In this document: positions 3,371 to 16,020 of the stretch, one piece after another
How the letters are laid out: the number at the start of each line of letters is the position of its first letter
How positions within the stretch are numbered: position 1 is the first letter of the stretch
DNA from: Acidimicrobiaceae bacterium
Lineage (GTDB): Bacteria > Actinomycetota > Acidimicrobiia > Acidimicrobiales > RAAP-2
DNA: 64,000 bases
Assembly (NCBI GenBank): GCA_003142095.1
Contig: PLON01000069.1
Location: forward strand, 1-64,000
Direction of reading: 5' to 3'
The notes under the pieces: model-generated
Told to the model about the DNA's origin: nothing
The model's database searches: none
Seen by the model: the letters and a program-made list of their open reading frames with translations, nothing else
Program-made: the position numbers and the translations under genes

Positions 3371-3416
3371 GAACGCATAGTACACACGTTTGTGGGATTT
3401 ACGAACGGGCAGCAGA

Positions 3417-3442
3417 AGGGCCGGTGCTTTCACACCGGCCCT
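3417..3442 (-). terminator. Hairpin terminator beside the tRNA-fMet fragment
   Basis: Perfect 10-bp stem (AGGGCCGGTG/CACCGGCCCT) with a 6-nt loop, 17 bases beyond the tRNA 3' end. Same core as the hairpins at 1177 and 14433, so it was probably copied together with the tRNA. Confidence 0.55.
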
Positions 3443-3458
3443 GACCTGCACTTATGCT

Positions 3459-3509
3459 TGGTGGCGGGGGCAAGATTTGAACTTGCGACCTTCGGGTTAT
3501 GAGCCCGAC
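3459..3509 (-). pseudogene. 3' fragment of tRNA-fMet (attachment-site-like)
   Basis: The 51 bases match the 3' two-thirds of the complete initiator tRNAs: CCA end, acceptor strand, T arm, variable loop and the anticodon loop CTCATAA with its 3' stem. Identity stops abruptly after GAGCCCGAC and AT-rich unrelated sequence begins. A sharp break in the anticodon stem with an intact 3' end is what an att site left by integration into a tRNA gene looks like. The acceptor matches the 14480 copy (GGCGGGG), while the encoded CCA matches the 11571 copy. Confidence 0.75.
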
Positions 3510-3576
3510 TTTTACACGCCTCAAAATTAACTTTTCATAATCCGAAATCAAACTGAAAATCGTAGAGACCAACGCA

Positions 3577-4248
3577 CTACTGAACTTTTATGACACTCCC
3601 GCTCCTACCCTCGGAAAAGTTGGTACTCGTGAATTGGATTCCTCGTGATTTGTTGACGGATCTTGTGTAAAAAATGTGCTCCAAAACTAGACACTTTAAA
3701 TGACTTCGCGCTTTAAGTTTTTGTCCGTAAACGTGCAATTCGTTCCGGTGTGTCAACGCGCATCGAAAACAGCAACACCTGCGCATCGAAAACAGCAACA
3801 CGTGTTCATTGGTTTCAGTCTGACTTTCGGTACCCGAGTCGGCAATTAGAAACTCAATCGTGGCAGTGCCGAGCGATCGTGCCAGACGTTCGGCCAATGG
3901 CGTGTTGCCAATTTGTTGGGCACCCTGCTCCAACTTGCGGATTGAGTCCTTGGAGCAGCTGTCAGCGTTACGGGCAAGTTGCTCCTGACTCGATCCCAAT
4001 TCGTGGCGGAGGAGTCGTAGGAATACACCACCATGATTTGTCGTCGAACGATCACGAGTCCCGCGTAGAAACGTTGCTGTAGTGGCATCAACGTTACGAC
4101 CGGAGGTATCGAAGTTATCGCCATACAGCGCTCTCGTCTCGTGCCCGTCGTTGCCATGACGGCCGCTGGATTCAGAAGTATTAGGTCTTACCCACTTCTT
4201 CATGGGTGCAGTTGCAGGTCGCTCATCTTGAAAAGTGACGTCTGGCAA
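3577..4248 (-). CDS. XRE-type DNA-binding protein, possibly decayed
   Basis: The middle of this 223-aa frame (about residues 76-140) reads as a Cro/CI helix-turn-helix: RLLRHELGSSQEQLARNA, then SIRKLEQGAQ and PLAERLARSLG. The first ~70 residues and the last ~80 (cysteine-rich and basic) match nothing I recognise, and the 3' part lies in AT-rich sequence unlike its neighbours. A start nearer the HTH is possible. A 23-bp tandem duplication (3758-3801) lies inside. Its position just inside a tRNA fragment suits a mobile-element regulator, but it may be partly degenerate. Confidence 0.45.
   Translation of the reverse strand: MPDVTFQDERPATAPMKKWVRPNTSESSGRHGNDGHETRALYGDNFDTSGRNVDATTATFLRGTRDRSTTNHGGVFLRLLRHELGSSQEQLARNADSCSKDSIRKLEQGAQQIGNTPLAERLARSLGTATIEFLIADSGTESQTETNEHVLLFSMRRCCCFRCALTHRNELHVYGQKLKARSHLKCLVLEHIFYTRSVNKSRGIQFTSTNFSEGRSGSVIKVQ
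3758..3801. repeat. Short tandem duplication
   Basis: GCGCATCGAAAACAGCAACAC occurs twice in tandem with a period of 23 bases. It lies inside the C-terminal part of the XRE frame. As 23 is not a multiple of three, the duplication shifts the frame, which supports decay of that end. Confidence 0.7.
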
Positions 4249-4388
4249 CGATCTAGTGGCGAATCACCCTTCTGATCTGCGTACTTGGCACCACGTTACA
4301 ATTTGTGATGGAGTAGCGACCTCGCCGAAAACCTTCGGCCTCCGTCGGGGTCGCTACCACCACACTGCGAAGCGTGTGAGAACTTTCT

Positions 4389-5246
4389 TTACGTATTTGA
4401 AGATTGAGTCCCCATCGCCCGAGTAAGCCCGACAACTGATCTCGGCGTCGCGTAATCAATTTCATTACCTCGTCGATTCTCATCGCACTTAGCGTCTAAA
4501 TCACAATTCTTTTCGATCACGCTGAGCGCGTGAGCGAAACCACCTGGCGCTCGGGCGTCTCGACGCGAACTCGTCTCCACTCGACTACTCGCGTCGCCGT
4601 ACGCGACCGCTCCTAACGCCACGAGATCACCGTGCAACGCTCGATCTTCCCCAGTTCTCAAGGGCGCGAATCCTCCCGCCGCAAGATAAGCCTTCGCGTT
4701 AAATCCCATGCTTGTTCCGTGTATCGGATTGCGTTCCTCTTCGTAGGCGCGTTGCCAACGAAGGGCTGTCTCATCGCGCGACGATGGCCAGTCGACGACA
4801 GACACGCGACCGGACCACAAGTCCACGCCAGCTTCGTGGCGCACGACTTGTGTCCTCAGCCAGTTTTGTGGGACCCGTGAGTCCGCGTCGGTAGTGGCGA
4901 GCCAAATTGTCGAAGAGTCCAACGCTGACCACTGACCCAGAAGTGCCGCACAGCCGATTCGTCGAGCGAAGCCGACGTTTTTCGCGTGACAGACCATCGT
5001 GGTGACCTGCACGGGGCACGTGGCGCGTCTCAGTTCACGCTCCCACTGCGCAACGACCGCGGCGCTGGCGTCGCGACAGGCGTCGAGCACCACCATCAGC
5101 TTCATCTCGACGTTCCACTCGCCAAGGCCTCCAAAGGCACTGGCCAGTGACGACAACGCCGCACCAAGTAGCTCCTGCTCGTTGTGGACGGGCATCACGA
5201 CACCGACGGCCTGCGTTCGCGCCAGGGCTGTGCGCCCATGACTCAC
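4389..5246 (-). CDS. Family 2 glycosyltransferase
   Basis: GT-A fold glycosyltransferase that would transfer a nucleotide-sugar residue. It opens with VGVVMPVHNEQE, has the metal-binding DAD in ATTDADSR, and a catalytic-acid-type GED late in the domain. No membrane segment is seen. The start is GTG at 5246, overlapping the methyltransferase stop by four bases (GTGA), so translation is coupled. It is the last gene of a four-gene operon with a NodS-like methyltransferase, a PIG-L deacetylase and an acyl-CoA dehydrogenase-like protein. The acceptor is unknown. Confidence 0.8.
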   Translation of the reverse strand: MSHGRTALARTQAVGVVMPVHNEQELLGAALSSLASAFGGLGEWNVEMKLMVVLDACRDASAAVVAQWERELRRATCPVQVTTMVCHAKNVGFARRIGCAALLGQWSALDSSTIWLATTDADSRVPQNWLRTQVVRHEAGVDLWSGRVSVVDWPSSRDETALRWQRAYEEERNPIHGTSMGFNAKAYLAAGGFAPLRTGEDRALHGDLVALGAVAYGDASSRVETSSRRDARAPGGFAHALSVIEKNCDLDAKCDENRRGNEIDYATPRSVVGLTRAMGTQSSNT

Positions 5247-5812
5247 GTCGTTCGCTCCCACACGTCGAGCACGAACTTCTCTTCTTCGTGGTGTACGACT
5301 CGTTGCAATGCCGCGTTCTTGTCGATCAGTTGGTGGGCTCGATCCCCGCTGAGGGGATAGTCTGTCTCCCCTCGCCAATGAACGCCCACCACGTGTGACC
5401 CGGGCGTCGTCGACCGCACGATCAACGTCACGACGTAGCCCAGCGTTTCGGCGTCAAAGTAGTACGCAACTTCACTTAACACGACGAGGTCAAACAATCC
5501 GTCAGGCCACGACTCTGGAATGGTGCGCCTCTCAACGACCACGTTTTTCAACGCTTTCAAGCGACTGATCGCCTGCTCGAGTGCGCGGGGAATGATGTCG
5601 GTGGCGAGAAGCCGTTCACAACGCGGCGCCAAGAGCTCACTCAGCACGCCTATAGAGCACCCCGGCTCGAACGCGTTCACGTAGCGCTCCCTCGGCAACG
5701 AGTTCACCGTGAGGGCGTACTTACGCCGTTCGTAGGAACTCGTCGCAAAGTTCCAGGGATCAGCATTCAAGGCGTACATGTTTTGAAAGTAGGTGTGCTG
5801 CGTTGAAGTCAT
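5243..5812 (-). CDS. NodS-like SAM-dependent methyltransferase
   Basis: About 189 aa with the NodS-family pattern: YFQNMYALNADPWNFATS, then SYERRKYA, then motif I EPGCSIGVL (in place of ExGxGxG) and LLATDI. The rhizobial NodS N-methylates the deacetylated sugar of Nod factor. Here the partner deacetylase is directly upstream, overlapping by TGATG, which suggests an N-methyl amino sugar as product (inference). ATG at 5812 is preferred, although an in-frame GTG lies one codon upstream. Confidence 0.8.
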   Translation of the reverse strand: MTSTQHTYFQNMYALNADPWNFATSSYERRKYALTVNSLPRERYVNAFEPGCSIGVLSELLAPRCERLLATDIIPRALEQAISRLKALKNVVVERRTIPESWPDGLFDLVVLSEVAYYFDAETLGYVVTLIVRSTTPGSHVVGVHWRGETDYPLSGDRAHQLIDKNAALQRVVHHEEEKFVLDVWERTT

Positions 5813-6573
5813 CACGCGCTCGTCAACTCATCGACGTACACCTCGTAGGAACGCCAAAACCGGCGCATCAACGCCGCGGGCAGTACCGCGGCGTCCGCGG
5901 CGTCGGGTCCAATGGGGTGGGTCTGGGATTGAAACGCCTCGGTGGCCCAGCGCTTACGCGCGCTCGCGCGACGTTCGAGTTCCAAACGTCGACAGTGACG
6001 CCACGGGATATCGGCCCCCTCGGGGTCGGCCCAGTGCCACGCCCACACTAAATAGCCGAGCATCCTCGCGCCCACCTCACGACACACCGCGCGTGCCGAC
6101 GCGCCACACGCGTCGTGATCGGGGTGACCGTCGTGTCGCCACGGAGCGACGCAGAGATCTCCGGGCCGCACGATCTCGCTCAAGGACTCGTCAAGTCGTT
6201 TTCGGTGACGCGTGACTCCACTGTCGGGCAGGTGGAGTCGAGTGATCACGGGCTCGTCCCAACCCAGTCGATGAAGTGCCGTGCGCGATTCCCAATGGCG
6301 AATGTTGGCAAGATCGAGATGCTTCGACGCGACGGACGCCGGGTGAGATCCTTCCCCGTCAGTGACGGCCACCACTTCAATCTCAATCCCGTCGGTGAGC
6401 GCCCGTTGAATGAGCCCGGCGGCACCCAGCACTTCGTCATCGGGGTGAGGTGCCACGAGGATCATTCGTTGAACCCGTACAAGCTCAATGGCCTCAAGTT
6501 CTCTCTGGCGCGCGGAAGATCGCCAGAGAGCCTCCGAGCGTCCGAGATGCTCTTCGTCCACAGTCAGTTCCAC
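5812..6573 (-). CDS. PIG-L family zinc deacetylase
   Basis: LmbE/PIG-L N-acetyl-sugar deacetylase. The zinc motif PHPDDEVLG is at about residues 41-49 and the second histidine motif HDGHPDHDACG follows in the middle. Relatives deacetylate GlcNAc-containing substrates such as GlcNAc-PI, GlcNAc-inositol (MshB) or diacetylchitobiose. It starts at GTG 6573 and overlaps the upstream gene by 10 bases. An N-terminal extension of about 35 residues precedes the fold. Neighbours suggest it exposes an amino group for the NodS-like enzyme. Confidence 0.85.
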   Translation of the reverse strand: MELTVDEEHLGRSEALWRSSARQRELEAIELVRVQRMILVAPHPDDEVLGAAGLIQRALTDGIEIEVVAVTDGEGSHPASVASKHLDLANIRHWESRTALHRLGWDEPVITRLHLPDSGVTRHRKRLDESLSEIVRPGDLCVAPWRHDGHPDHDACGASARAVCREVGARMLGYLVWAWHWADPEGADIPWRHCRRLELERRASARKRWATEAFQSQTHPIGPDAADAAVLPAALMRRFWRSYEVYVDELTSA

Positions 6574-7574
6574 GGTCGTGTTTCCTTCGCGACGCGACCG
6601 AGTTCCGCCGCGTCACTTCCTCCGTGGTGTTGCGACAAATAGACGAAAAGGTCAGCCGCTCGACGTGATTGAGCTCGATCGTGACAGAGCGGTCGAGCTC
6701 CCCCGGCGGACGCCACGCGCGAAAGCACTTCCATCGCCGCGTCGCGCACCACTTGGCGTGTGACGAGTGCTCGGTAGCGAGCGCGCTCGACGTTATCGCT
6801 CGCACTGGCGTCGATGGCGCCGGCGGTGCTCTTTAAAACGTCGCGCATCGCCTCCAACGAAGCCGCGGCGAGTCCGAGGTCCGCGAGGACGTGCGGGCTG
6901 GGCTCAGCGGGCAATGACGTGATGAGATCGTTCACGAGTCCGACCGCACCCCCGTACCAACAAGCGGCGACACCCGACGCACCGAACCAAAATCCCGAAC
7001 GCTCGGTGTAGAAGTTCGCAGGGCCCACGGCACGCGTCTCAGGAATAATGGGACCGGAAAACTCGAGTGTTGAGCTTACCGAGTCGGCCATGCCCACCGC
7101 AGGCCACGAATCTTTGACGGCGGCGACAACGTTTTCCTCGACCGCGATGTCGAAAAGTCGATACCCTTCCGACGTCTCGGCGGTCACGAGGGCCCGGTCA
7201 AGAACGCCGGTGCCCGAGCAAAATTCCTTGCTCCCGGAGAGTCGCCATCCTCCCGCAACTCGCGTCGCCGACGTGTCACCACGACGAGATCGAGCGGCCC
7301 ACACGCCGTACGAAGCGCGATCGTCCACGGGGCTCATGCCAGCTTCGGACAAAATGGCCAACGCGTCAGCGTGACCTTCACTCAACCTCCCTACTGAGAG
7401 GTCGAGCGACGCCCACCGAGCGAGCACCTCAAAACGATGCCACGTCTCGCCCGAGCCGGGCAGCGCCAAACCCACAGCGTCGGTGCGAACAAACTGGTCA
7501 AAGAGCGGCTGTACTCGTGGCATAGTCACCTGCTCAGCGTGTCCGAATTCGTAGCATATCTCGGCGCCGGCCAT
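6564..7574 (-). CDS. Acyl-CoA dehydrogenase-like flavoprotein
   Basis: 336 aa, shorter than classic acyl-CoA dehydrogenases (about 380). The middle region has the family beta-domain pattern (GWRLSGSKEFCSG, then DSWPAVGMADSVS) and the C-terminal helical half ends with HDRAQSRRAADLFVYLSQHH. I could not place the usual catalytic glutamate, so oxidation of an acyl thioester is not assured. It may act on a sugar- or lipid-linked substrate. First gene of the four-gene operon. The start is ATG 7574; an alternative is the internal ATG near 7523. Confidence 0.7.
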   Translation of the reverse strand: MAGAEICYEFGHAEQVTMPRVQPLFDQFVRTDAVGLALPGSGETWHRFEVLARWASLDLSVGRLSEGHADALAILSEAGMSPVDDRASYGVWAARSRRGDTSATRVAGGWRLSGSKEFCSGTGVLDRALVTAETSEGYRLFDIAVEENVVAAVKDSWPAVGMADSVSSTLEFSGPIIPETRAVGPANFYTERSGFWFGASGVAACWYGGAVGLVNDLITSLPAEPSPHVLADLGLAAASLEAMRDVLKSTAGAIDASASDNVERARYRALVTRQVVRDAAMEVLSRVASAGGARPLCHDRAQSRRAADLFVYLSQHHGGSDAAELGRVAKETRPWN

Positions 7575-7645
7575 CAAGGACTATTGCCGCAACGAGTCTG
7601 GGCAACACCGCGGCGACGTGGCAACGAAACATGATCGGCGACCCA

Positions 7646-8176
7646 CTACTTATGTCCGGCCAAGAGGTCAAGCATGTCCTCAGCGTGCTCTTCTTCCTGC
7701 GCGAGAATGCCCTCTAACATCCGTCGTGTCGTCGGATCGCCATCGCCCAACCACCTAATAATTTCGCTATAGGAGGCGACGGCTACCCGCTCGGCCACGA
7801 GGTCCTCTTGGATCATCTTTTTCAGTTCTTCCGACGAGTCGTACTCAGTGTGGCTGCGCCCCGTCAACGACTCGGGGTTGAAATCAGGCTTGCCTCCTAA
7901 TTGCGTAATGCGTGCAGCAATCATGTCCGCGTGCTCCGCTTCTTCCGCGGCGTGCTCGAGGAACTCATCAGCGGCCGGCTGCGCGTTTAAGCCCTCTGCC
8001 GTGAAATAGTGCCTCTTGTAGCGCAGGACGCAGACGAGTTCGGTGGCCAAGGCTTGGTTAAGAACGGAGATCACTCGTTCCAAGTCAGCTCCGTAGGCGT
8101 CGGTGACCGGACCCTTCTCCATGTTCGTACGAGCTTGCTTTCGCAACGTCTCAACATCAGTCAAAAAATCGTTCAT
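7646..8176 (-). CDS. Ferritin-like / bacterioferritin-type protein
   Basis: A 176-aa four-helix protein with carboxylate-bridged di-iron ligand pattern: ALATELVCVLRYKRHYF, then EHAAEEAEHADMIAARI, then EEEHAEDMLDLL. It probably oxidises and stores iron or protects against peroxide. I choose ATG 8176 because AAGGAG precedes it by 6 nt, although the frame opens 15 bases earlier. It stands alone on the minus strand with a 356-base spacer upstream. The nearby CsbD and small membrane proteins suggest a stress context. Confidence 0.82.
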   Translation of the reverse strand: MNDFLTDVETLRKQARTNMEKGPVTDAYGADLERVISVLNQALATELVCVLRYKRHYFTAEGLNAQPAADEFLEHAAEEAEHADMIAARITQLGGKPDFNPESLTGRSHTEYDSSEELKKMIQEDLVAERVAVASYSEIIRWLGDGDPTTRRMLEGILAQEEEHAEDMLDLLAGHK

Positions 8177-8532
8177 TGTTGACTCCTTCATTTCTCGGTG
8201 GGCAGTTCGTCATTCGTCTTTTTGCACTCTCTGTGGGGCCATCTGAGTAAACCTCGATCATTAGAAACTTCGTTCCTCCGAAGCCTTCGCAAGATGAGAC
8301 GCGCACCTTTTGTGAAACTACCGTGCTTCGGTGCCGTCTACAACCGGTTGACGAGCCGGCCTTCCAACAAGTACCAACGCCCTGTTTTCAAACTTCATCT
8401 CATTTCTTTGTTACATCAAGTCGTTTGATACTTCAAAGGACGCGACTTCACTGATGGATCCATTCCGGCTTCATTCAGCCAGTCGTATCTGCCACGGCAA
8501 AGAACCGCTCGAGGCAAATGGCGAATCTTGAT
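8177..8532. other. Intergenic spacer without recognisable gene
   Basis: 356 bases upstream of the ferritin-like gene. Several short plus-strand frames exist, but none has a convincing start signal or protein-family resemblance. It presumably carries the promoter of the minus-strand ferritin gene; I could not define boxes with confidence. Confidence 0.5.
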
Positions 8533-8688
8533 CTAGTAGTAGTGGCGTCGACCGCCAAGTGCGTGGCCCATTGATCCGAGGAGCCAGAGTGCAAGTCCGA
8601 CCACGAGCACAATCACGCCGATCGTCCACACGATCGCAATCCCCGTGACGAACCCAATGAGGAGAAGAATCAAACCGAAAATAATCAC
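8533..8688 (-). CDS. Small membrane protein, DUF6131-like
   Basis: 51 aa, two closely spaced hydrophobic helices (IIFGLILLLIGFVTGIAIVW and IGVIVLVVGLALWLLGSMG) ending in GGRRHYY. This is the shape and C-terminal signature I associate with the DUF6131 family of actinobacteria. The start is GTG 8688 with GGAGG 4 nt upstream. The frame stays open upstream, but that part overlaps a relic leader (8783-8854) and has no membrane character. Function unknown. Confidence 0.7.
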   Translation of the reverse strand: MIIFGLILLLIGFVTGIAIVWTIGVIVLVVGLALWLLGSMGHALGGRRHYY

Positions 8689-8782
8689 AATGCCTCCAGT
8701 GCTAATACCTAAATTTTCATATTGTCGACCGCCGCGAGTTCGCCGCTTCCCAGGGCACCGAGGCGAGCGCGGGGATCGATAA

Positions 8783-8854
8783 CTACTTGTGACGCGCAGC
8801 GCCCTTCCTTGCGGCAGTTCCGAAGGCGCTGAGCACCATTCTTGGGAGACCCAC
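8783..8854 (-). pseudogene. Relic start of the small two-helix protein gene
   Basis: GTG at 8854 opens a 23-codon frame beginning VGLPRMVLSA, clearly the same as MGLPGMVLSA at the start of the gene at 10203. It then diverges and stops. A good Shine-Dalgarno (GAGGAGGTG) sits upstream. It is either a truncated paralogue or a short leader peptide in front of the DUF6131-like gene. Confidence 0.5.
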
Positions 8855-8940
8855 ATCACACCTCCTCGTAGCGTCCCTGACCAAGTGTCAGGTGAGAAGG
8901 ATGCGGGGTCTGGACGTCCTAATTCGGAGTGTAACATCCG
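8826..8940 (-). repeat. Promoter-leader repeat, copy A (inverted)
   Basis: Read on the minus strand, these ~115 bases align with 10118-10231 on the plus strand at roughly 80% identity. Shared parts are a TGTTACRCT block resembling an extended -10, AGGACGTC, CGCATCCTTCTC, a leader hairpin (CCTGAC-5 nt-GTCAGG, 8876-8892), the Shine-Dalgarno, and the start of a coding region. Elsewhere in 8689-9191 I see no gene. Confidence 0.75.
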
Positions 8941-9191
8941 TGACCGCACGTCAGACTTAACGAGTCACTATGAAGCGTGGACCGATGTCCGATTCGTTTC
9001 ACCATCGTTGAGCCAATGGTACTTCGATGTGCTTCTACCGAGCGACAGCAGAACGATGATGTCGGACCTGACACCGTACCCGCGCATGGCGAGATGTTCA
9101 ATCCTTGAATCGAGACGTCAGCCTGTCCCTACGGATGCCGTGTCGTACAATCGCTTCGTCATGAGAAACGCTGTGGCGGAGGACGCCCGCG

Positions 9192-9851
9192 ATGGCGAGC
9201 ACTAAGCGACTCCCTCAGCACGTGGGCATCATTCCTGACGGCAATCGGCGTTGGGCTCAAGACCAAGGTCTCGAAAAACAGGACGGTTATCACTTCGGAC
9301 TGCAGCCGGGTCTGGATGTATATAGCGCTTGCTTGGCGCTAGGTATCCCAGAGATCACCTTCTACGGATTCACGATGGACAACACGAAACGTCCCGCGGT
9401 TCAGATCGAAGCCTTTCGAAACGCATGCGTGGAAGCCGTGGCCGAGTTGGAGAAAAGGGACGCGGATCTGCTCGTGGTGGGCAACACTCAGTCGGCGCTC
9501 TTTCCCACGGAACTCTTGCGTTACACGCAACGGACCCAAATCGGCGAGGGTGGGATCAAAGTCAATTTCCTCGTGAACTACGGCTGGAGTTGGGACCTTA
9601 ACTACTCGCTCAAGAACCGCGACGTCAGTAAAGGCGACAACGTCGTCGACGGAATCGCGTCCGTCGAGATCTCGAGGATCGATCTCATCGTGCGCTGGGG
9701 CGGCGGTCGGCGACTCAGTGGTTTCCTACCCATCCAATCGATCTACGCCGACTTTTACGTGATCGACGAACTGTGGCCGGACTTTTCAATAGACCAGTTC
9801 CACGAGGCCCTGGCGTGGTATCAAGAGCAAGACGTCACGCTCGGTGGTTAG
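9192..9851 (+). CDS. Short cis-prenyltransferase (UPP synthase family)
   Basis: 219 aa, somewhat short for undecaprenyl diphosphate synthases (about 245). It has the pyrophosphate-binding IPDGNRRWAQ near the N-terminus, GFTMDNTKRP in the middle, and a variant C-terminal block RWGGGRRLSGFLPIQSIYAD then DELWPDF in place of the usual RTSGExRLSNFLLWQ. The family condenses isopentenyl diphosphate in Z configuration. The changed RxSGE block and short length suggest a secondary enzyme making a shorter chain (inference), not the essential UppS. It is flanked by inverted promoter-leader repeats. Confidence 0.8.
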   Translation: MASTKRLPQHVGIIPDGNRRWAQDQGLEKQDGYHFGLQPGLDVYSACLALGIPEITFYGFTMDNTKRPAVQIEAFRNACVEAVAELEKRDADLLVVGNTQSALFPTELLRYTQRTQIGEGGIKVNFLVNYGWSWDLNYSLKNRDVSKGDNVVDGIASVEISRIDLIVRWGGGRRLSGFLPIQSIYADFYVIDELWPDFSIDQFHEALAWYQEQDVTLGG

Positions 9852-10117
9852 AGGGTGGTGTACGTAGGGCTGATTTTTTCCAGCGCTGGGTCGGATTATC
9901 TAATACGTCGAGAGAATTCTCGGCAAGTGGCCCAAGTGAGTGAGCGCCGCTCAAAACGTTTGGCCGCGTCTACGGTGAGATGCGGTGGCGTCCCGCGCGG
10001 ATATCTGCAGCCATCCACGCCATACTTGACTGGTCATGCCGCAGATTCCAACTCTTCGCACATAAGGCGACCGCGTAAACCGTCTTCGAATCGGACTCCG
10101 GCGCTGTGACCTCTATT

Positions 10118-10231
10118 CGGTGTTACGCTCCTGAATAGGACGTCTAGATCTCGCATCCTTCTCGCCTGACATTCAGTCAGGGAACGCAGAAGAAGGTGTG
10201 AAATGGGTCTTCCAGGAATGGTGCTCAGCGC
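10118..10231 (+). repeat. Promoter-leader repeat, copy B
   Basis: Plus-strand partner of 8826-8940. The leader hairpin stem (10165-10181, CCTGAC/GTCAGG) is identical to that of copy A while the loop differs. The repeat ends inside codon 10 of the gene at 10203. It likely contains that gene's promoter and 5' UTR. Confidence 0.75.
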
Positions 10232-10466
10232 GATCGCAGTCGCAGCCGGCGCAATAATGTACTGGGCCATCACGTATCAAGGTACGGGCTTTCGCCTCTC
10301 GACCGTGGGGGTCATTCTCATGATCGTCGGGGCGTTTGGTTTTGTGGTTTCGGCGATCATCTTCGCGGTCTCACGAGGTCCGGGACGAACCACCAGACAC
10401 TCCGTGGACCGTCAAGTGGTCGACTCCCAGGGCAATTCGAGTTCGGTTCACGAGGACTCCAAGTAG
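10203..10466 (+). CDS. Small two-helix membrane protein
   Basis: 87 aa with two membrane segments (MVLSAIAVAAGAIMYWAI and VGVILMIVGAFGFVVSAIIF) and a polar, serine-rich tail. The pattern RLSTVGVILMIVGAFG recalls the DUF6458-type proteins of actinobacteria. The start is ATG 10203 with AGAAGG 7 nt upstream. Its promoter-leader is duplicated at 8826-8940. Function unknown; a stress-related envelope role is inferred from neighbours. Confidence 0.7.
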   Translation: MGLPGMVLSAIAVAAGAIMYWAITYQGTGFRLSTVGVILMIVGAFGFVVSAIIFAVSRGPGRTTRHSVDRQVVDSQGNSSSVHEDSK

Positions 10467-10583
10467 CGACGCTCAGCCAACGCTCACGTTGTCGCTGGCG
10501 AACGAACATTCAGTGATAACAGGTCCGAAACGACGAGCATCTCGTCAAGAATGCGCGAATCACTATCGAAAGGAGTAACCGCA

Positions 10584-10655
10584 ATGTACATAGGTGGAGG
10601 AATGGTTGTTTTGATCCTCGTCATCGTCCTCATCGTCTTTCTCGTGAGGCGATGA
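10584..10655 (+). CDS. 23-residue membrane peptide
   Basis: ATG with AAGGAG 8 nt upstream opens a 23-codon frame starting MYIGGGMVV, followed by a single hydrophobic helix and ending in VRR. Very small MYIGGG-type membrane peptides are, as far as I recall, common in actinobacteria. The positive end after the helix predicts a C-terminus on the cytoplasmic side. Function unknown. Confidence 0.6.
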   Translation: MYIGGGMVVLILVIVLIVFLVRR

Positions 10656-10872
10656 AACGTTGATGGCGGTCACGGTACAGATGTCCAAACCGGTTTCGGG
10701 GTTGGAGTAATGACAATGCTCTTGCCATCGTCCGCCAGAATGTGGGCCCTTCGAATGTCGATTCGATGGCGCGTGCGTCGGGTTCTTTTCATTTCGAGAC
10801 GACTCAACCAGAACGATTTGACTGCGTGAGAGGCGAATGTCCTCTCTTCGATACAAGAGAAATGGAGTGATA

Positions 10873-11046
10873 GTGACTAACAAGGACAAGGCCAAGAACA
10901 TGGCTCAAGTAGCAAAAGGCAAGGTCGAAGAGGGTGCCGGGAAGACCATGGGCGACGACAAACTCGAAGACGATGGCAAAGCCGACCAGATGAAGGGCAA
11001 CATGAAACAAGCCGGTGAAAAAGTCAAGGATGCTTTCAAGAAGTAG
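10873..11046 (+). CDS. CsbD-family stress protein
   Basis: 57 aa, highly charged, with the CsbD repeat pattern: AKGKVEEGAGKTMGDDKLED, then KADQMKGNMKQAGEKVKDA. The family is induced in general stress responses in Bacillus (SigB) and others; its molecular role is unknown. I prefer GTG 10873 (GGAG 5 nt upstream) over the ATG at 10837. A long inverted repeat follows. Confidence 0.85.
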   Translation: MTNKDKAKNMAQVAKGKVEEGAGKTMGDDKLEDDGKADQMKGNMKQAGEKVKDAFKK

Positions 11047-11077
11047 ATCCGAAAGTTGCCCCGCGACAGCCGAACAT

Positions 11078-11127
11078 TTACCGTCGACGAGGACCAAGAA
11101 GAGCCCTTTGGTCCTCGTCGACGGTAA
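11078..11127 (+). terminator. Long inverted repeat after csbD, probable terminator
   Basis: A perfect 19-bp stem (arm TTACCGTCGACGAGGACCA) with a 12-nt loop, 31 bases after the stop. No clear T tract follows, so termination may be weak or the hairpin may act as a 3' stabiliser. Confidence 0.6.
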
Positions 11128-11390
11128 CAATCCAATAGGTCACACCGCGAACGCCACTGCGAAACGCGTAGTGGCACCGGATTGGCCGCTGCTACCGTGG
11201 GCTCGGGGTCCGCTCAGCCGCTTTCGTGATTACCGCGCTCCCGCAGCAACCGGGAACCCTCGGGGCCACTCCCCGCGTCTTAGGAGTTGAGGCCCTAAGC
11301 GACGATGATTTTGCATTAGCCCTTTATCTTTGTACGAAGTCCACTATCGCGCAGTGTCTGACGTCGGCTGGGAGTGGGATCCCGAACTAC

Positions 11391-11474
11391 TCAAGTTTTG
11401 AGAATTTCGACCCGAAGGGTCCAAACGGCGGGTTTAGTTCGAGATTTCGGCTCTCGGACACGCATCGATCCCAT
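11391..11474 (-). pseudogene. Possible integrase N-terminal relic
   Basis: A 27-residue frame begins MGSMRVRE and includes AVWTLRVEIL. It shares the GS-x-R ... W-x-LR layout of the better relic at 3263-3370 and lies at the same relative place, just beyond the terminator of a tRNA-fMet copy. It is too short to be sure. The rest of 11128-11535 shows no gene. Confidence 0.25.
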
Positions 11475-11535
11475 TTGGCGATCGTACCGCCCTGCACTCA
11501 CAACTCCATGAAAGTGTCAAAGATGTGTCAAAAGA

Positions 11536-11565
11536 AATGGCCCCTTCCAATTGGAAGGGGCCATT
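11536..11565 (-). terminator. tRNA-fMet terminator
   Basis: Perfect 15-bp palindrome (arm AATGGCCCCTTCCAA) followed on the minus strand by TCTTTT. It lies 5 bases downstream of the tRNA 3' end. Its sequence is unrelated to the hairpins of the other three copies. Confidence 0.75.
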
Positions 11566-11570
11566 CTTCC

Positions 11571-11647
<77 letters not shown>

Positions 11648-11826
11648 ATGATGGACAATCGCTATACCACACCCGTTATTTTCCCCCAAAAAGTTGCAAT
11701 CATAAGGCGCCGAACGACGCCGCATTGAACTTACCGATCCGTCTGAATGCCCCCACTTTTCACTCTCGGTCAAAACCAATCGTGCAAAACGGGTGCAACG
11801 ACAGTGCAAGGGTTTTGCCACGGTGG

Positions 11827-11882
11827 CCCCCCCCCCCCCCCTCACGTGGAGTTCCGAATTATCAGAAGTCCACGTGAGGGGG
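11827..11882. repeat. 15-C homopolymer and hairpin
   Basis: A run of 15 C (11827-11841) runs into an inverted repeat CCCCCTCACGTGGA (11837-11850) / TCCACGTGAGGGGG (11869-11882). Such tracts slip easily in replication and sequencing, so the exact length is uncertain. It precedes the protease-like relic. Confidence 0.7.
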
Positions 11883-12215
11883 TGGCCTGACCCCGTTGAA
11901 CTGATCCACTTGACCTGGACCCTGGACCGCTCTCTTGGAAATGACTACGGCGCTTGGGGACTCGCAACGGGAGTGGCGACAGACGAGGCAATCATCCGCG
12001 AAGGCATTGGTATCGGCGACGAAGTTTTTACGGTGGGCCGCTTCCGTAATCACTTGGGCACAGATCGAAACGAACCCATTGCGCGCGTAGGGAACATCGC
12101 GGCGATCCCGCCGGATTTGGTTTACTCGCACAAGTTTGGAAGAACGAGGGCGATTCTTTTTGAGGCACGATCTATTGGAGGTCTCAGCCGTTCGCCCGAG
12201 TTTGTAAATCTTGGA
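11874..12215 (+). pseudogene. Fragment of a trypsin-like peptidase
   Basis: The frame contains GDEVFTVGRFRNHLGTDRNE, then PIARVGNIAAIP, and EARSIGGLSRSPEFVNLG. The last resembles the GGLSGSP nucleophile loop of trypsin-fold peptidases. In my memory of this family the loop is followed by more strands. Here the frame runs into unrelated sequence and the N-terminal half with the catalytic His/Asp is missing. No plausible start precedes it. It is best read as a broken gene. Confidence 0.5.
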
Positions 12216-12453
12216 TTGACACCCCGGCGGGAGGGAAAACTGGAACAGTCTGTTCCAAACCTCTTGCCGCTGCGGCTGTCGGTCGCCTTCCACAATTTAG
12301 TGCTGTGTGGATTACGGAGCTCAGTATGGGTCTTGTCACCGCTGCATATTTTGCCTTAGCCAGCTGGCGCCATCGAATCCCTAACGGCTCCCACGCCACT
12401 TAACGTTTCAAATTTGACGCAGCGGATTGAGGAAAATTGGTCTGCTCCGAGTT

Positions 12454-14034
12454 TTAGTTGGAAGCGATTTGATTACGCCCGTTATTCTTCGCCGCGTAGA
12501 GTGCGCTATCAGCGCGACGCATTGCGTCGATGAGGTGTTCATTTGGATCAATCTGCGTGAGCCCGATCGACACAGTAACTTCCGAAGACACCAGTGGGGA
12601 CATCAACGGAGACATCGCGACACGCAGTCGTTCAGCCACCGGTTGGGCCTGCTGTAAGTTTGTCCCCGGCAAAAACATCATGAACTCGTCGCCCCCCAAA
12701 CGAACCGCGAAATCTTGCTCTCGCGATAGCGACCTAAGAAGATCGGCAAAACGACAGATAACGGCATCTCCGACTTCGTGGCCGTACGTGTCGTTCACAG
12801 CTTTGAAGTGATCAAGATCGCAAATCATCAGAGCTGCCGTTGCCGGTCCTTCGCGCGGGATGCTACTGAGAGCTCGACGATTGAGCAGTCCCGTCGACGA
12901 ATCATGATCAGCAAGATGTTCAAGGCGAGTTCGAAACGTTACTCGTTCAAGTGCGGCGTCGGTCTGTTCGATCAACAGCCGGACGAGTTCGCGTTCAATT
13001 TCTGTGGGTCGAAGATGATCGATCGGGTCCTCTATCGCGAAGACCAGTCGAGGCACACCATCTCCGTCGAATACAGGCGCGAGCAGAACGTCATCGGACC
13101 AACCAAATCTCCCAGCTCCATTGCGTCTCGACCGAAACTCACCGTGCGCTGATCCGTGAACGGTTTGCGCGGGCACCAACCAACAGCCTCCCACTTCACG
13201 AGTGTGATCACGAAATAGTTCGAAGACCGGGAGCTCAAGCGTTTTAGCGATCGCTACCTCGTCGAAGTTCGCTATCGCGAGCGGTAGTGAGCTATCCCCG
13301 TCCCCAAAATAGATAGCCGCGCGTTCAAAACCGAGACGTGGAACCAGCGCTTCACACGCAGTAACAAGAGCCTCGCGATGAGATTGGCATTCGGATAAAC
13401 GCTTCGACGCTCCAAGGAGTTGCGTCATTCGGTTTTGAACTCGCTCGGCTTGAGCGCTGTCTTGGGCATTCTCGAGCGACTGTTCGGCGTGCGAACAGAT
13501 CGCGCGCAACATGCGGAGTTCACTCGAGTCCGGCATTTTGCCCGATCGTGGTTCGTCGATCGACAAGATCCCGAGTGGCTCGCCCTTTGAATTGCGGAGT
13601 TGGACGAAAAGCGCGTCCTCCGGATCCCATCCACCTGGAATAGTGGGTCGATTCGGAGATGGAATCACGTAGTTATCAAGATTGCTCCACACCTCGGCTG
13701 ATCTCGGAACAATGTAAATCCCTGGGTGTATTTCATACTGGCTACTCACCAGTTGCTCTTCAAACATCTCGCGACTTTCCCTCGTGTGCATGAGCGCTTG
13801 CGCATCCGGTGGTCCGATCACCAACACGACCTCATAGTCGTCCCACGCGGGTTGGTACTTGTTGAATACCACAATTTCAAAGCCCGCAGCCGAGTGGACT
13901 GTTTCGACGACCGTACGAAGAACTTCATCGACATTGTCCTCGCGAGCGCTGCGAACTAACGAAACCAGAGCATCGATCCGCCCAATCGCGTCGTCCTCCA
14001 CCTGACGTTCCACGGACGTCAGGTACTGCTGCAT
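12454..14034 (-). CDS. GAF-GGDEF diguanylate cyclase
   Basis: 526 aa, soluble. Two GAF-like sensor domains (about 20-190 and 205-360) precede a GGDEF domain (about 365-526). The active site RLGGDEF is intact (GGDEF at 447-451), and a product-inhibition I-site REQD lies exactly five residues before it (438-441), so it should make c-di-GMP with feedback control. HDSSTGLLNRRAL marks the domain start. It stands alone. A 9-bp inverted repeat (14091-14123) lies about 60 bases upstream of the start. The sensed signal is unknown. Confidence 0.92.
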   Translation of the reverse strand: MQQYLTSVERQVEDDAIGRIDALVSLVRSAREDNVDEVLRTVVETVHSAAGFEIVVFNKYQPAWDDYEVVLVIGPPDAQALMHTRESREMFEEQLVSSQYEIHPGIYIVPRSAEVWSNLDNYVIPSPNRPTIPGGWDPEDALFVQLRNSKGEPLGILSIDEPRSGKMPDSSELRMLRAICSHAEQSLENAQDSAQAERVQNRMTQLLGASKRLSECQSHREALVTACEALVPRLGFERAAIYFGDGDSSLPLAIANFDEVAIAKTLELPVFELFRDHTREVGGCWLVPAQTVHGSAHGEFRSRRNGAGRFGWSDDVLLAPVFDGDGVPRLVFAIEDPIDHLRPTEIERELVRLLIEQTDAALERVTFRTRLEHLADHDSSTGLLNRRALSSIPREGPATAALMICDLDHFKAVNDTYGHEVGDAVICRFADLLRSLSREQDFAVRLGGDEFMMFLPGTNLQQAQPVAERLRVAMSPLMSPLVSSEVTVSIGLTQIDPNEHLIDAMRRADSALYAAKNNGRNQIASN

Positions 14035-14432
14035 ACTGGGTCAAAGCGCAAGAAACAGCCGCCGAACTGTCGATCTTTACCAGGGTTGATGCCCATGAGG
14101 TCATTATTGCACTTCTCATGGGCGTTCGACTACGACGACAACTGGCCCTCCCCTCCAAAAAACTTCCGCACACACTTCCATGTCGCCGGTATCTAATGTC
14201 GGGCGAACTGTAACCAGTGCGATTGATGTAGTCCGAAGAAATCGGAGGAGCCGGTTCGCCGACTTCGAGAACCTTTGACCTCCGTTACGCCGGCAAACCC
14301 AACTTCAGCCTGCCCGACTCGATCGTCGTGCGATGACAAGCAACGAGACGCTCACCCGCAAATACCGCAAGAGCCCGGTATGGGCGTACAACCATCACCG
14401 TGACCCAAAACGTGACCGAGGCCAGACTTAGC
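14035..14432. other. Intergenic spacer with one inverted repeat
   Basis: About 400 bases upstream of the diguanylate cyclase. GCCCATGAG/CTCATGGGC (14091-14123) forms a 9-bp stem with a 15-nt loop and may be an operator or a short RNA hairpin. No convincing coding frame was found. Confidence 0.5.
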
Positions 14433-14468
14433 GCAGAAAAGCCGGTGCTATCGCACCGGCTTTTCTGC
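14433..14468 (-). terminator. tRNA-fMet terminator, bidirectional
   Basis: Perfect 16-bp stem (arm GCAGAAAAGCCGGTGC) with a 4-nt loop and A/T tracts within both arms. It lies 11 bases beyond the tRNA 3' end and shares its core with the hairpins at 1177 and 3417. Confidence 0.75.
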
Positions 14469-14479
14469 ACTTCTCTTCG

Positions 14480-14553
<74 letters not shown>

Positions 14554-14607
14554 TTGCCTGCAACACATTACTAGATAACGCGAGGCGGCTCAACAGGGCA
14601 GTCTCGC

Positions 14608-16020
14608 TCAGCGCAAGGTGTAGCGAAGTGACGTGCGCTGACCGTGCGCGAAGACGATCGTGAATCGGTACTCCCCCGAGCGACTTCCTCGAGCGACAAT
14701 GACCCGAATCGTCAGGACGCGTCCGTTGTCGTGCGTAACGACGGCGCTCGTGCCGCCCAAGTCACTCACGACGATTGGTCGACCGTAGAAGCCTGAGCCG
14801 ATTATTCGTGTGCTCATCGTCCGTCCCGACCAGATCGCCGTGCTCATGCGTGAGGCCCTCGGGGCCGGCGGAATGACGGTCACTGTCGTAGCCAACGATG
14901 AGGTCGCGGCGTACGTGCCGTCAGACGCCTTGGTCGCCGTGACGATGCACGTACCGGCACGCGAGCTCGTGAGCGAATCGCCAGTGATCGTGCAGTTCGC
15001 CGTTCCCGCTGAGGTCACGACGTACGACACCGCGCCCGCACCCGAGCCACCGCTCGACGTGAGCGTCAGCGGGTGACGGTAGTCCGTGGACGTGCTCGTA
15101 ATGGTGACCGAGCCTTGGGCTTTGGGGTTACCGGAACCGACGGTGATGCTCTGCTTCACTTCCGCAGCGGCCGCAAAGGCGCCGTTGCCCGGATCATTGA
15201 AGTCGATGACGCAGACACCGTTATCAGTGAACGTCACTTTTCCGTCGCTCAGCGAACAGCCCGTCGACTCGCTGTTCAAGTAGATCTCGACCTTGTTCCC
15301 GGAGGTCGCCGACGCCGTGGGTGAATACGTACCGTGAATCGCGCCCGCGGCCGGCGCCGTGCTTGCGGAAATCGTGTTGGACGAATACACCTTGACCGAC
15401 TTTTGAACTTGACTCGCGGCGGCGAACGCGCCGTTACCTGGGTCGTTAAAGTTCACGATGCACTTGCCCGCACTCTTGAAATCAATCCAGCCGTAACTGA
15501 GGGCGCATCCACTCGAATACTTATCGAGAGTCATAACCACTTTGTCACCCGACGTGGCGGTGGCACCGGGCGCGTACGAACCTCCGGCGCTGCCGGCTGA
15601 AGGAAACGCACTCGTTGAAATCGTGTTGTCGCTGTACACCTTGACGCTTTGTGTGACCTGAGCGGCCGCGACGTAAGTGCTGTTACCGGGGTCGTTGAAA
15701 TCCACGACGCAGGTCCCAGAACCCGTGAAGGTCACCTTGCCGTCGCTAAGCGAACATCCCGACGAACTCTTATCGAGGGTGATCGCCACCTTGTCACCGG
15801 ACGAGGCAGTGGCGCTCGGGGTATAGGTCCCGTGAGTGCTCCCCGCGCTCGGTGCCGCGCTCGCGCTGATGGTATTGGACGTCGTGCCCGCCGCGAAGGC
15901 CGGAACTGCCCCAAGTCCGACGATCCCCAAAACGATCGCCGCAGCCGCCGCAGCGCTCGACCAACGGACTCGGGCGGAAGCGCCCTTACGTCGATGTTGA
16001 AGTGAGGATAAGTTTCTCAT
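14608..16020 (-). CDS. Secreted protein with three ~90-aa repeats
   Basis: 470 aa. After a basic N-terminus, a hydrophobic segment (AAAAAAIVLGIVGLGAVPAFA) gives a signal peptide cleaved near AFA-AG. Three tandem repeats (about 50-300) each carry NTIS, SGDKV or SGNKV, GCSLSDGKVTFT-like text and FNDPGN, plus two cysteines that probably bridge. A fourth beta-rich domain follows. The last ~80 residues form a domain shared with the protein at 20335, ending GEYRFTIVF...RYTLR. The fold looks like Ig/TIG beta sandwiches, so a surface or adhesion role is inferred. A structured leader sits upstream. Confidence 0.75.
   Translation of the reverse strand: MRNLSSLQHRRKGASARVRWSSAAAAAAIVLGIVGLGAVPAFAAGTTSNTISASAAPSAGSTHGTYTPSATASSGDKVAITLDKSSSGCSLSDGKVTFTGSGTCVVDFNDPGNSTYVAAAQVTQSVKVYSDNTISTSAFPSAGSAGGSYAPGATATSGDKVVMTLDKYSSGCALSYGWIDFKSAGKCIVNFNDPGNGAFAAASQVQKSVKVYSSNTISASTAPAAGAIHGTYSPTASATSGNKVEIYLNSESTGCSLSDGKVTFTDNGVCVIDFNDPGNGAFAAAAEVKQSITVGSGNPKAQGSVTITSTSTDYRHPLTLTSSGGSGAGAVSYVVTSAGTANCTITGDSLTSSRAGTCIVTATKASDGTYAATSSLATTVTVIPPAPRASRMSTAIWSGRTMSTRIIGSGFYGRPIVVSDLGGTSAVVTHDNGRVLTIRVIVARGSRSGEYRFTIVFAHGQRTSLRYTLR

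Follow-up and report, generated by a model that had tools for sequence, protein, structure and literature searches.

A mobile four-gene cassette associated with trehalose and stress genes, and its possible role in the biosynthesis of an N-methylated amino-sugar compound

In rhizobia, the NodB-NodC-NodS system carries out deacetylation of N-acetylglucosamine (GlcNAc) followed by N-methylation, and genuine nodS lies directly after nodB-nodC. The mycothiol (MshA/MshB) and bacillithiol (BshA/BshB) pathways both use a glycosyltransferase together with a PIG-L family deacetylase to form a small cytosolic glucosamine (GlcN) conjugate; MshA and BshA are GT4 enzymes. PIG-L family members mostly remove the acetyl group from GlcNAc moieties (PMC4101496). 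In Pseudomonas, trehalose and alpha-glucan are associated with the treY/Z operon (glgA-treZ-malQ-treY-glgX): in P. syringae, deletion of the glgA-to-glgX operon together with treS left neither trehalose nor alpha-glucan and lowered osmotic and desiccation tolerance (PMC8982409), and a P. aeruginosa counterpart relates loss of the treY/Z operon and treS to trehalose/alpha-glucan and stress tolerance (PMC8084333). Here we describe a four-gene operon that shares features with these systems, identified in a soil actinobacterium of the Acidimicrobiaceae (GCA_003142095.1, contig PLON01000069.1, positions 1 to 64,000; this whole stretch of 64,000 nucleotides is referred to below as the window). On balance, we favour the view that the operon represents a biosynthetic cassette that is widespread, moves horizontally and serves the response to abiotic stress (osmotic, desiccation and oxidative), operating by the mechanism proposed below; its product is probably an N-methylated amino-sugar compound that aids survival of drying or oxidative stress.

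The cassette occupies positions 4389-7574 on the minus strand of the window. Its first gene (7574-6564, ATG start, with an alternative TTG start possible at 7577) encodes a 336-residue acyl-CoA dehydrogenase (ACAD)-like protein and overlaps by 10 bases the gene for a 253-residue PIG-L/LmbE-family de-N-acetylase (6573-5812, GTG start). This second gene shares one base, at a TGATG junction, with that of a 189-residue NodS-family S-adenosylmethionine (SAM) methyltransferase (5812-5243, ATG start), which in turn overlaps by 4 bases, at a GTGA junction, the gene for a 285-residue GT2/GT-A glycosyltransferase (5246-4389, GTG start). The four genes, their order and the three overlaps are as the initial annotation had read them. 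No membrane segments are predicted in any of the four proteins.

Relatives were collected by using an alignment of the ACAD-like protein as query against one genome per species, a scan in which at least 507 genomic stretches were found to encode an ACAD-like relative. Among the best 80 of these loci, ranked by closeness to the query such that the share may drop in distant relatives, profile searches identified all four families together in 70 and three of the four in 7. Two arrangements, ACAD-PIG-L-methyltransferase-glycosyltransferase (46 of the 80) and glycosyltransferase-ACAD-PIG-L-methyltransferase (22), jointly describe 68 of the 80 loci, while in loci L059 and L035 the order is split. 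The initial annotation had proposed co-occurrence of the four families elsewhere as a check, and the outcome is strongly positive: the same four families are found together in 70 of the 80 loci, which represent many genera, and their association is not due to chance. At a threshold of E<=1e-30, an ACAD relative is present in 48 of 396 sampled Actinomycetota genomes, and within the window's own genus its occurrence is patchy, with a close relative in 5 of 25 genomes. The cassette was also found in Proteobacteria and Deinococcota and on plasmids of Acinetobacter, Pandoraea, Comamonas, Cupriavidus, Legionella, Sulfitobacter, Sphingomonas, Bradyrhizobium, Komagataeibacter and Kitasatospora. In Deinococcus, the ACAD and PIG-L genes adjoin, with the methyltransferase nearby in D. 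radiodurans. The Deinococcus ACAD proteins (L113:190-2529 and L020:3707-5950) carry an extra, glycosidase-like N-terminal part of ~400 residues, without a Pfam or PDB sequence match, whose relatives also occur as separate genes annotated as beta-glucosidases, ruling it out as a cassette-specific feature. PIG-L matches on S. meliloti pSymB (L019) were likewise rejected as a cassette, being unaccompanied by the other cassette genes.

The flanks of the cassette point to abiotic stress, and above all to trehalose operons, rather than to Nod signalling. In 10 of 10 loci of the P. fluorescens group, the ATG of the ACAD gene lies 1-2 nucleotides past the glgX stop, downstream of malQ-treY, such that the cassette forms a direct 3' extension of the treY/Z operon; the published deletion spans glgA to glgX only, and the passages of that work consulted do not treat the genes downstream (PMC8982409). 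In Comamonas the cassette is enclosed between otsA and otsB; the Legionella copy comes after otsB and a GH65 gene, and the copies on Acinetobacter plasmids have catalase and otsAB genes around them. Pfam identities of the genes in the fetched flanks revealed one or more of KatE, LigD, Ku, OtsA/B, MalQ/TreY/GlgX or a ferritin relative in 46 of 100 loci; the count is per locus, irrespective of kinship, and the hits come from many genera and several classes. The window itself encodes a ferritin-like (Dps/rubrerythrin-like) protein at 7646-8191, also on the minus strand and 71 bases upstream of the first cassette gene, and a relative of this protein is encoded close to the cassette in 8 other independent loci. 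Furthermore, SigF/SigB-like promoters were found in 14 of 70 actinobacterial cassette upstream regions, compared with 39 of the 556 other genes in those loci (Fisher p 0.0009). A SigF-dependent GT2 of M. smegmatis, MSMEG_1097, has been reported (PMC4694148, PMC5445863); it was considered as a candidate cassette member but, as no neighbouring cassette genes are listed, was not used here.

Turning to the individual enzymes, the deacetylase belongs to PF02585 (3.8e-25; 89.3 bits against a Pfam cutoff of 28.2) and not to CE4, which agrees with the initial annotation in placing it in a different family from NodB. The metal-binding and catalytic residues of its HPDDE and HxDH motifs (H43, D45, D46, D148, H150, D152 and H153) are invariant among 11 diverse members. 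Its nearest solved PIG-L relative by sequence is the diacetylchitobiose deacetylase Dac (PDB 8bgn, 3we7; 2.8e-9), which similarly acts on GlcNAc sugars, although only ~130 residues align and Dac functions in archaeal chitin catabolism without a linked methyltransferase. Two side observations concern further PIG-L genes: a second, different PIG-L-like gene follows the Pseudomonas cassettes on the same strand at ~10050-10850 (L058, L064, L065, L077, L079, L083, L092, L102 and L104), and the 2.6 Mb genome from which the window derives contains eight PIG-L matches, including a pair of near neighbours on contig C18 (34400 and 35206).

The methyltransferase matches the NodS family PF05401 at 3.5e-15 (56.8 bits against a Pfam gathering threshold of 24) and the NodS structure 3ofj in PDB at 8.5e-18. 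Its SAM motif and an N-terminal DPW...YE..K motif are conserved, DPW...(F/Y)E being common to NodS, while its score against the NodS equivalog model NF041650 is 73.9 bits against a cutoff of 300. In the phylogenetic tree, genuine NodS proteins form their own clade (91/95) beside the cassette methyltransferases and the window's protein falls outside, with a p value of 0.47 in the approximately unbiased (AU) test for a single cassette clade; owing to long branches and a distant outgroup, the tree does not settle the direction of descent between NodS and the cassette methyltransferases. The glycosyltransferase, which is predicted to be soluble, matches Glycos_transf_2 at 7.8e-8 and conserves the GT-A motifs PxxNE, TDADS (DxD) and GED. 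A natural fusion supports joint action of these activities: a 1158-residue protein encoded on a plasmid of Gloeothece verrucosa PCC 7822 (L114:4955-8431) combines in one chain a GT2, a NodS-like methyltransferase with the DPW...YE motif and a deacetylase of the NodB type (CE4), which also suggests that one deacetylase family has been replaced by another. GlcNAc-type glycosyl transfer, de-N-acetylation and N-methylation would plausibly form a coherent route to an N-modified amino sugar.

The ACAD-like protein of the window has no Pfam match of its own; it was placed in the ACAD superfamily by profile search, and its predicted model has a predicted local distance difference test (pLDDT) score of 91.6. 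Fold comparison of this model returned TdsC, DszC and acyl-CoA dehydrogenases, all tied at Z ~30 over ~310 residues. The label "acyl-CoA dehydrogenase-like" given in the initial annotation fits the superfamily fold but not the enzyme class: class D flavin monooxygenases rank first by sequence and profile, a monooxygenase-like character that the annotation had not seen, and the acyl-CoA dehydrogenase catalytic Glu is absent, family alignments giving DLxVYLRQxH in place of RDxxxxxIYEGT (a verdict that concerns the Glu376-type YEGT position, as read from alignments, rather than the alternative IVD-type Glu position). Because this Glu is missing, the protein is less likely to be an acyl-CoA dehydrogenase and, judging from these comparisons, more likely to be a tailoring enzyme of monooxygenase-type or dehydrogenase-like character. 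The cassette protein has the ACAD fold in common with class D flavin monooxygenases (DszC/TdsC, MsuC) and nitrososynthases (KijD3, ORF36, DnmZ); it is ~60 residues shorter and ~20% identical. The profile matches to KijD3 (5e-10), ORF36 (1.7e-8) and DnmZ (3e-7), together with the fitting fold, the missing Glu and a free amine predicted to arise within the same operon, raise the prospect of an amino-sugar N-oxygenase of the nitrososynthase type, whose product would be a radical-scavenging N-methyl-N-hydroxy sugar (a nitrone or hydroxylamine). We consider this unlikely, as ordinary acyl-CoA dehydrogenases match equally well by fold and nearly so by sequence, the cassette lacks a dedicated flavin reductase, and the similarity is one of remote profiles.

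Under the stress-metabolite reading that we favour, the soluble GT-A enzyme would use UDP-GlcNAc as its most likely donor and attach the N-acetylated sugar, in that case GlcNAc, to a small acceptor in the cytosol, as suggested by its family and motifs. The PIG-L enzyme would then strip the acetyl group to leave a free amine, in keeping with the chemistry of its family and its intact metal and general-base residues, and the NodS-family methyltransferase would N-methylate this amine, a step suggested by the NodS clade and by the natural GT2-methyltransferase-deacetylase fusion. Finally, the ACAD-fold protein, as a flavin enzyme, may oxidise the product or its acceptor. The product would be kept in the cell, or at least would not be handled by a transporter of the cassette, and may act as a protectant alongside trehalose, alpha-glucan, catalase, ferritin-like proteins and DNA end-joining; the cassette would have reached the window's genome on an island inserted at tRNA-fMet. 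Within this scheme, the GlcNAc donor, the N-methylation, the flavin oxidation and the protective role are the parts that we infer. The N-modified glycoconjugate envisaged in the initial annotation is retained to the extent that the enzyme set is coherent and its residues are intact, and is here placed in a stress and trehalose context which that annotation had not seen.

Several observations weigh against this scheme. GlcNAc, glucose and fucose enzymes tie as the best matches of the glycosyltransferase in fold comparison, so its donor cannot be read from the fold. PIG-L is missing from the cassette at three loci, in genomes that hold only distant PIG-L proteins, and the glycosyltransferase is missing in three mycobacteria, which indicates that not every one of the four steps is strictly required; some of the genomes with incomplete cassettes are metagenome-assembled. 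The region upstream of the window's own cassette yielded no SigF-like site, nor did the Proteobacteria examined yield AlgU, RpoS or EcfG-like sites upstream of theirs, and the disregard of kinship in the neighbourhood counts tells in the same direction. Literature searches by family names and locus tags, with subscription journals largely outside their reach, returned no paper describing the cassette and no enzyme activity or product for it.

Among other interpretations, a redox or thiol cofactor pathway would share with mycothiol and bacillithiol biosynthesis a glycosyltransferase and PIG-L pairing directed at a small cytosolic GlcN conjugate, here further methylated and flavin-oxidised to serve as a redox buffer. 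Catalase and ferritin-like neighbours would suit such a role in oxidative stress, and the cassette deacetylase does show weak matches to BshB1, BshB2 and MshB. However, these matches (46 against a cutoff of 182, 33 against 195 and 21 against 224 bits, respectively) lie so far under the equivalog cutoffs that the cassette PIG-L is ruled out as a mycothiol or bacillithiol orthologue, the glycosyltransferase is a GT2/GT-A enzyme rather than a GT4 enzyme such as MshA or BshA, and no cysteine ligase of the MshC or BshC type is present in the cassette at any annotated locus. The cassette further differs in its added methyltransferase and ACAD-fold protein, and Actinobacteria already make mycothiol; we regard this pathway as quite unlikely.

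It is also conceivable that the four enzymes modify different molecules and are merely co-regulated, as the loci lacking PIG-L or the glycosyltransferase and the variable position of the latter (first, last, or in a split order in L059 and L035) would allow. All four genes are kept together, with overlaps, in 70 of the 80 loci, and this holds in different phyla and on plasmids, which makes such independence improbable, linkage this tight being rarely kept by co-regulation alone. That the cassette makes a secreted, N-methylated, chitooligosaccharide-like Nod-type signal is highly improbable, for although a NodS-family methyltransferase does stand beside a deacetylase and a GT2, as in the nodB-nodC-nodS arrangement, the cassette includes, at every annotated locus, neither an acyltransferase nor a NodC-like processive synthase of the membrane, its glycosyltransferase being a soluble GT-A enzyme; it also lacks export genes and membrane segments, and is surrounded by stress genes rather than nod genes. 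Together, the deacetylase family, the methyltransferase score and separate NodS clade, and the gene context led us to reject a Nod-factor pathway, and with it the Nod-factor-like framing of the initial annotation; a search of the window's own genome for NodA gave no match, as did the control search, which likewise matched nowhere. The Nod comparison is useful for two reaction types only, and a mobile stress-metabolite cassette is the better frame.

Evidence for the mobility of the cassette in this genome comes from its surroundings. A duplicated 3' half of tRNA-fMet, resembling an att repeat, lies at 3461-3510 and forms the left island boundary, while a full tRNA-fMet at 11571-11647 marks the right boundary of the cassette-bearing insertion; a second full copy lies at 14479-14553 (all three on the minus strand). 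The terminator that follows the tRNA likewise occurs twice (3412-3439 and 14433-14460). A single tRNA-fMet copy is present in 14 of 15 other genomes searched from the same genus, and one relative (G007) is colinear with the window, at 72% identity, over the stretch 5' of the tRNA (14433-15920). From the tRNA repeats and the single tRNA of relatives, it follows that the operon lies within an 8.1 kb insertion running from 3461 to 11571. The copy at 14479-14553 probably marks the ancestral position, as the gene at 14608-16020 adjoins the tRNA in relatives too. The tRNA-bounded island of the initial annotation is thus borne out, with the refinement that its left bound is a truncated 3' half, which had not been named, and that both full tRNAs lie to the right of the operon. 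A second, tandem insertion of 2.9 kb at the same tRNA (11571-14553) encodes a GAF-GGDEF protein at 12454-14034. No integrase was identified by Pfam among ten open reading frames around 8.5-16.0 kb, nor in the cassette genes or a helix-turn-helix (HTH_31) protein that the island encodes immediately downstream of the cassette (3577-4248, minus strand); the island may be a non-autonomous or decayed element.

Other genes of the island include an undecaprenyl diphosphate synthase-like gene at 9192-9851 (PF01255, 4.9e-41), which has a counterpart of 77% identity close to the cassette of locus L027, and which could provide a link to a lipid carrier or be just cargo. An 87-residue DUF6458-like protein (10203-10466) is a recurrent neighbour of the cassette, seen in at least six loci of Acidimicrobiaceae. 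PADLOC models of anti-phage systems gave no whole-protein match to the cassette, the sole return being a partial match of the methyltransferase domain to mad2, and an anti-phage system was accordingly rejected.

If the stress-metabolite reading is correct, hundreds of soil, plant-associated and clinical bacteria would have in common an uncharacterised metabolite of survival under desiccation and oxidative stress, with its genes placed within trehalose operons that have been the subject of genetic work in which the downstream genes were left aside. The NodS methyltransferase family would likewise gain a non-symbiotic home, and a concrete, testable product class would be at hand. More tentatively, and with some doubt on our part, the cassette might represent an undescribed class of cytosolic protectants, N-methylated and possibly N-oxidised amino-sugar conjugates that partner trehalose and alpha-glucan and have spread on plasmids and islands over several phyla, with the Nod-factor methyltransferase having been drawn from an older stress family.

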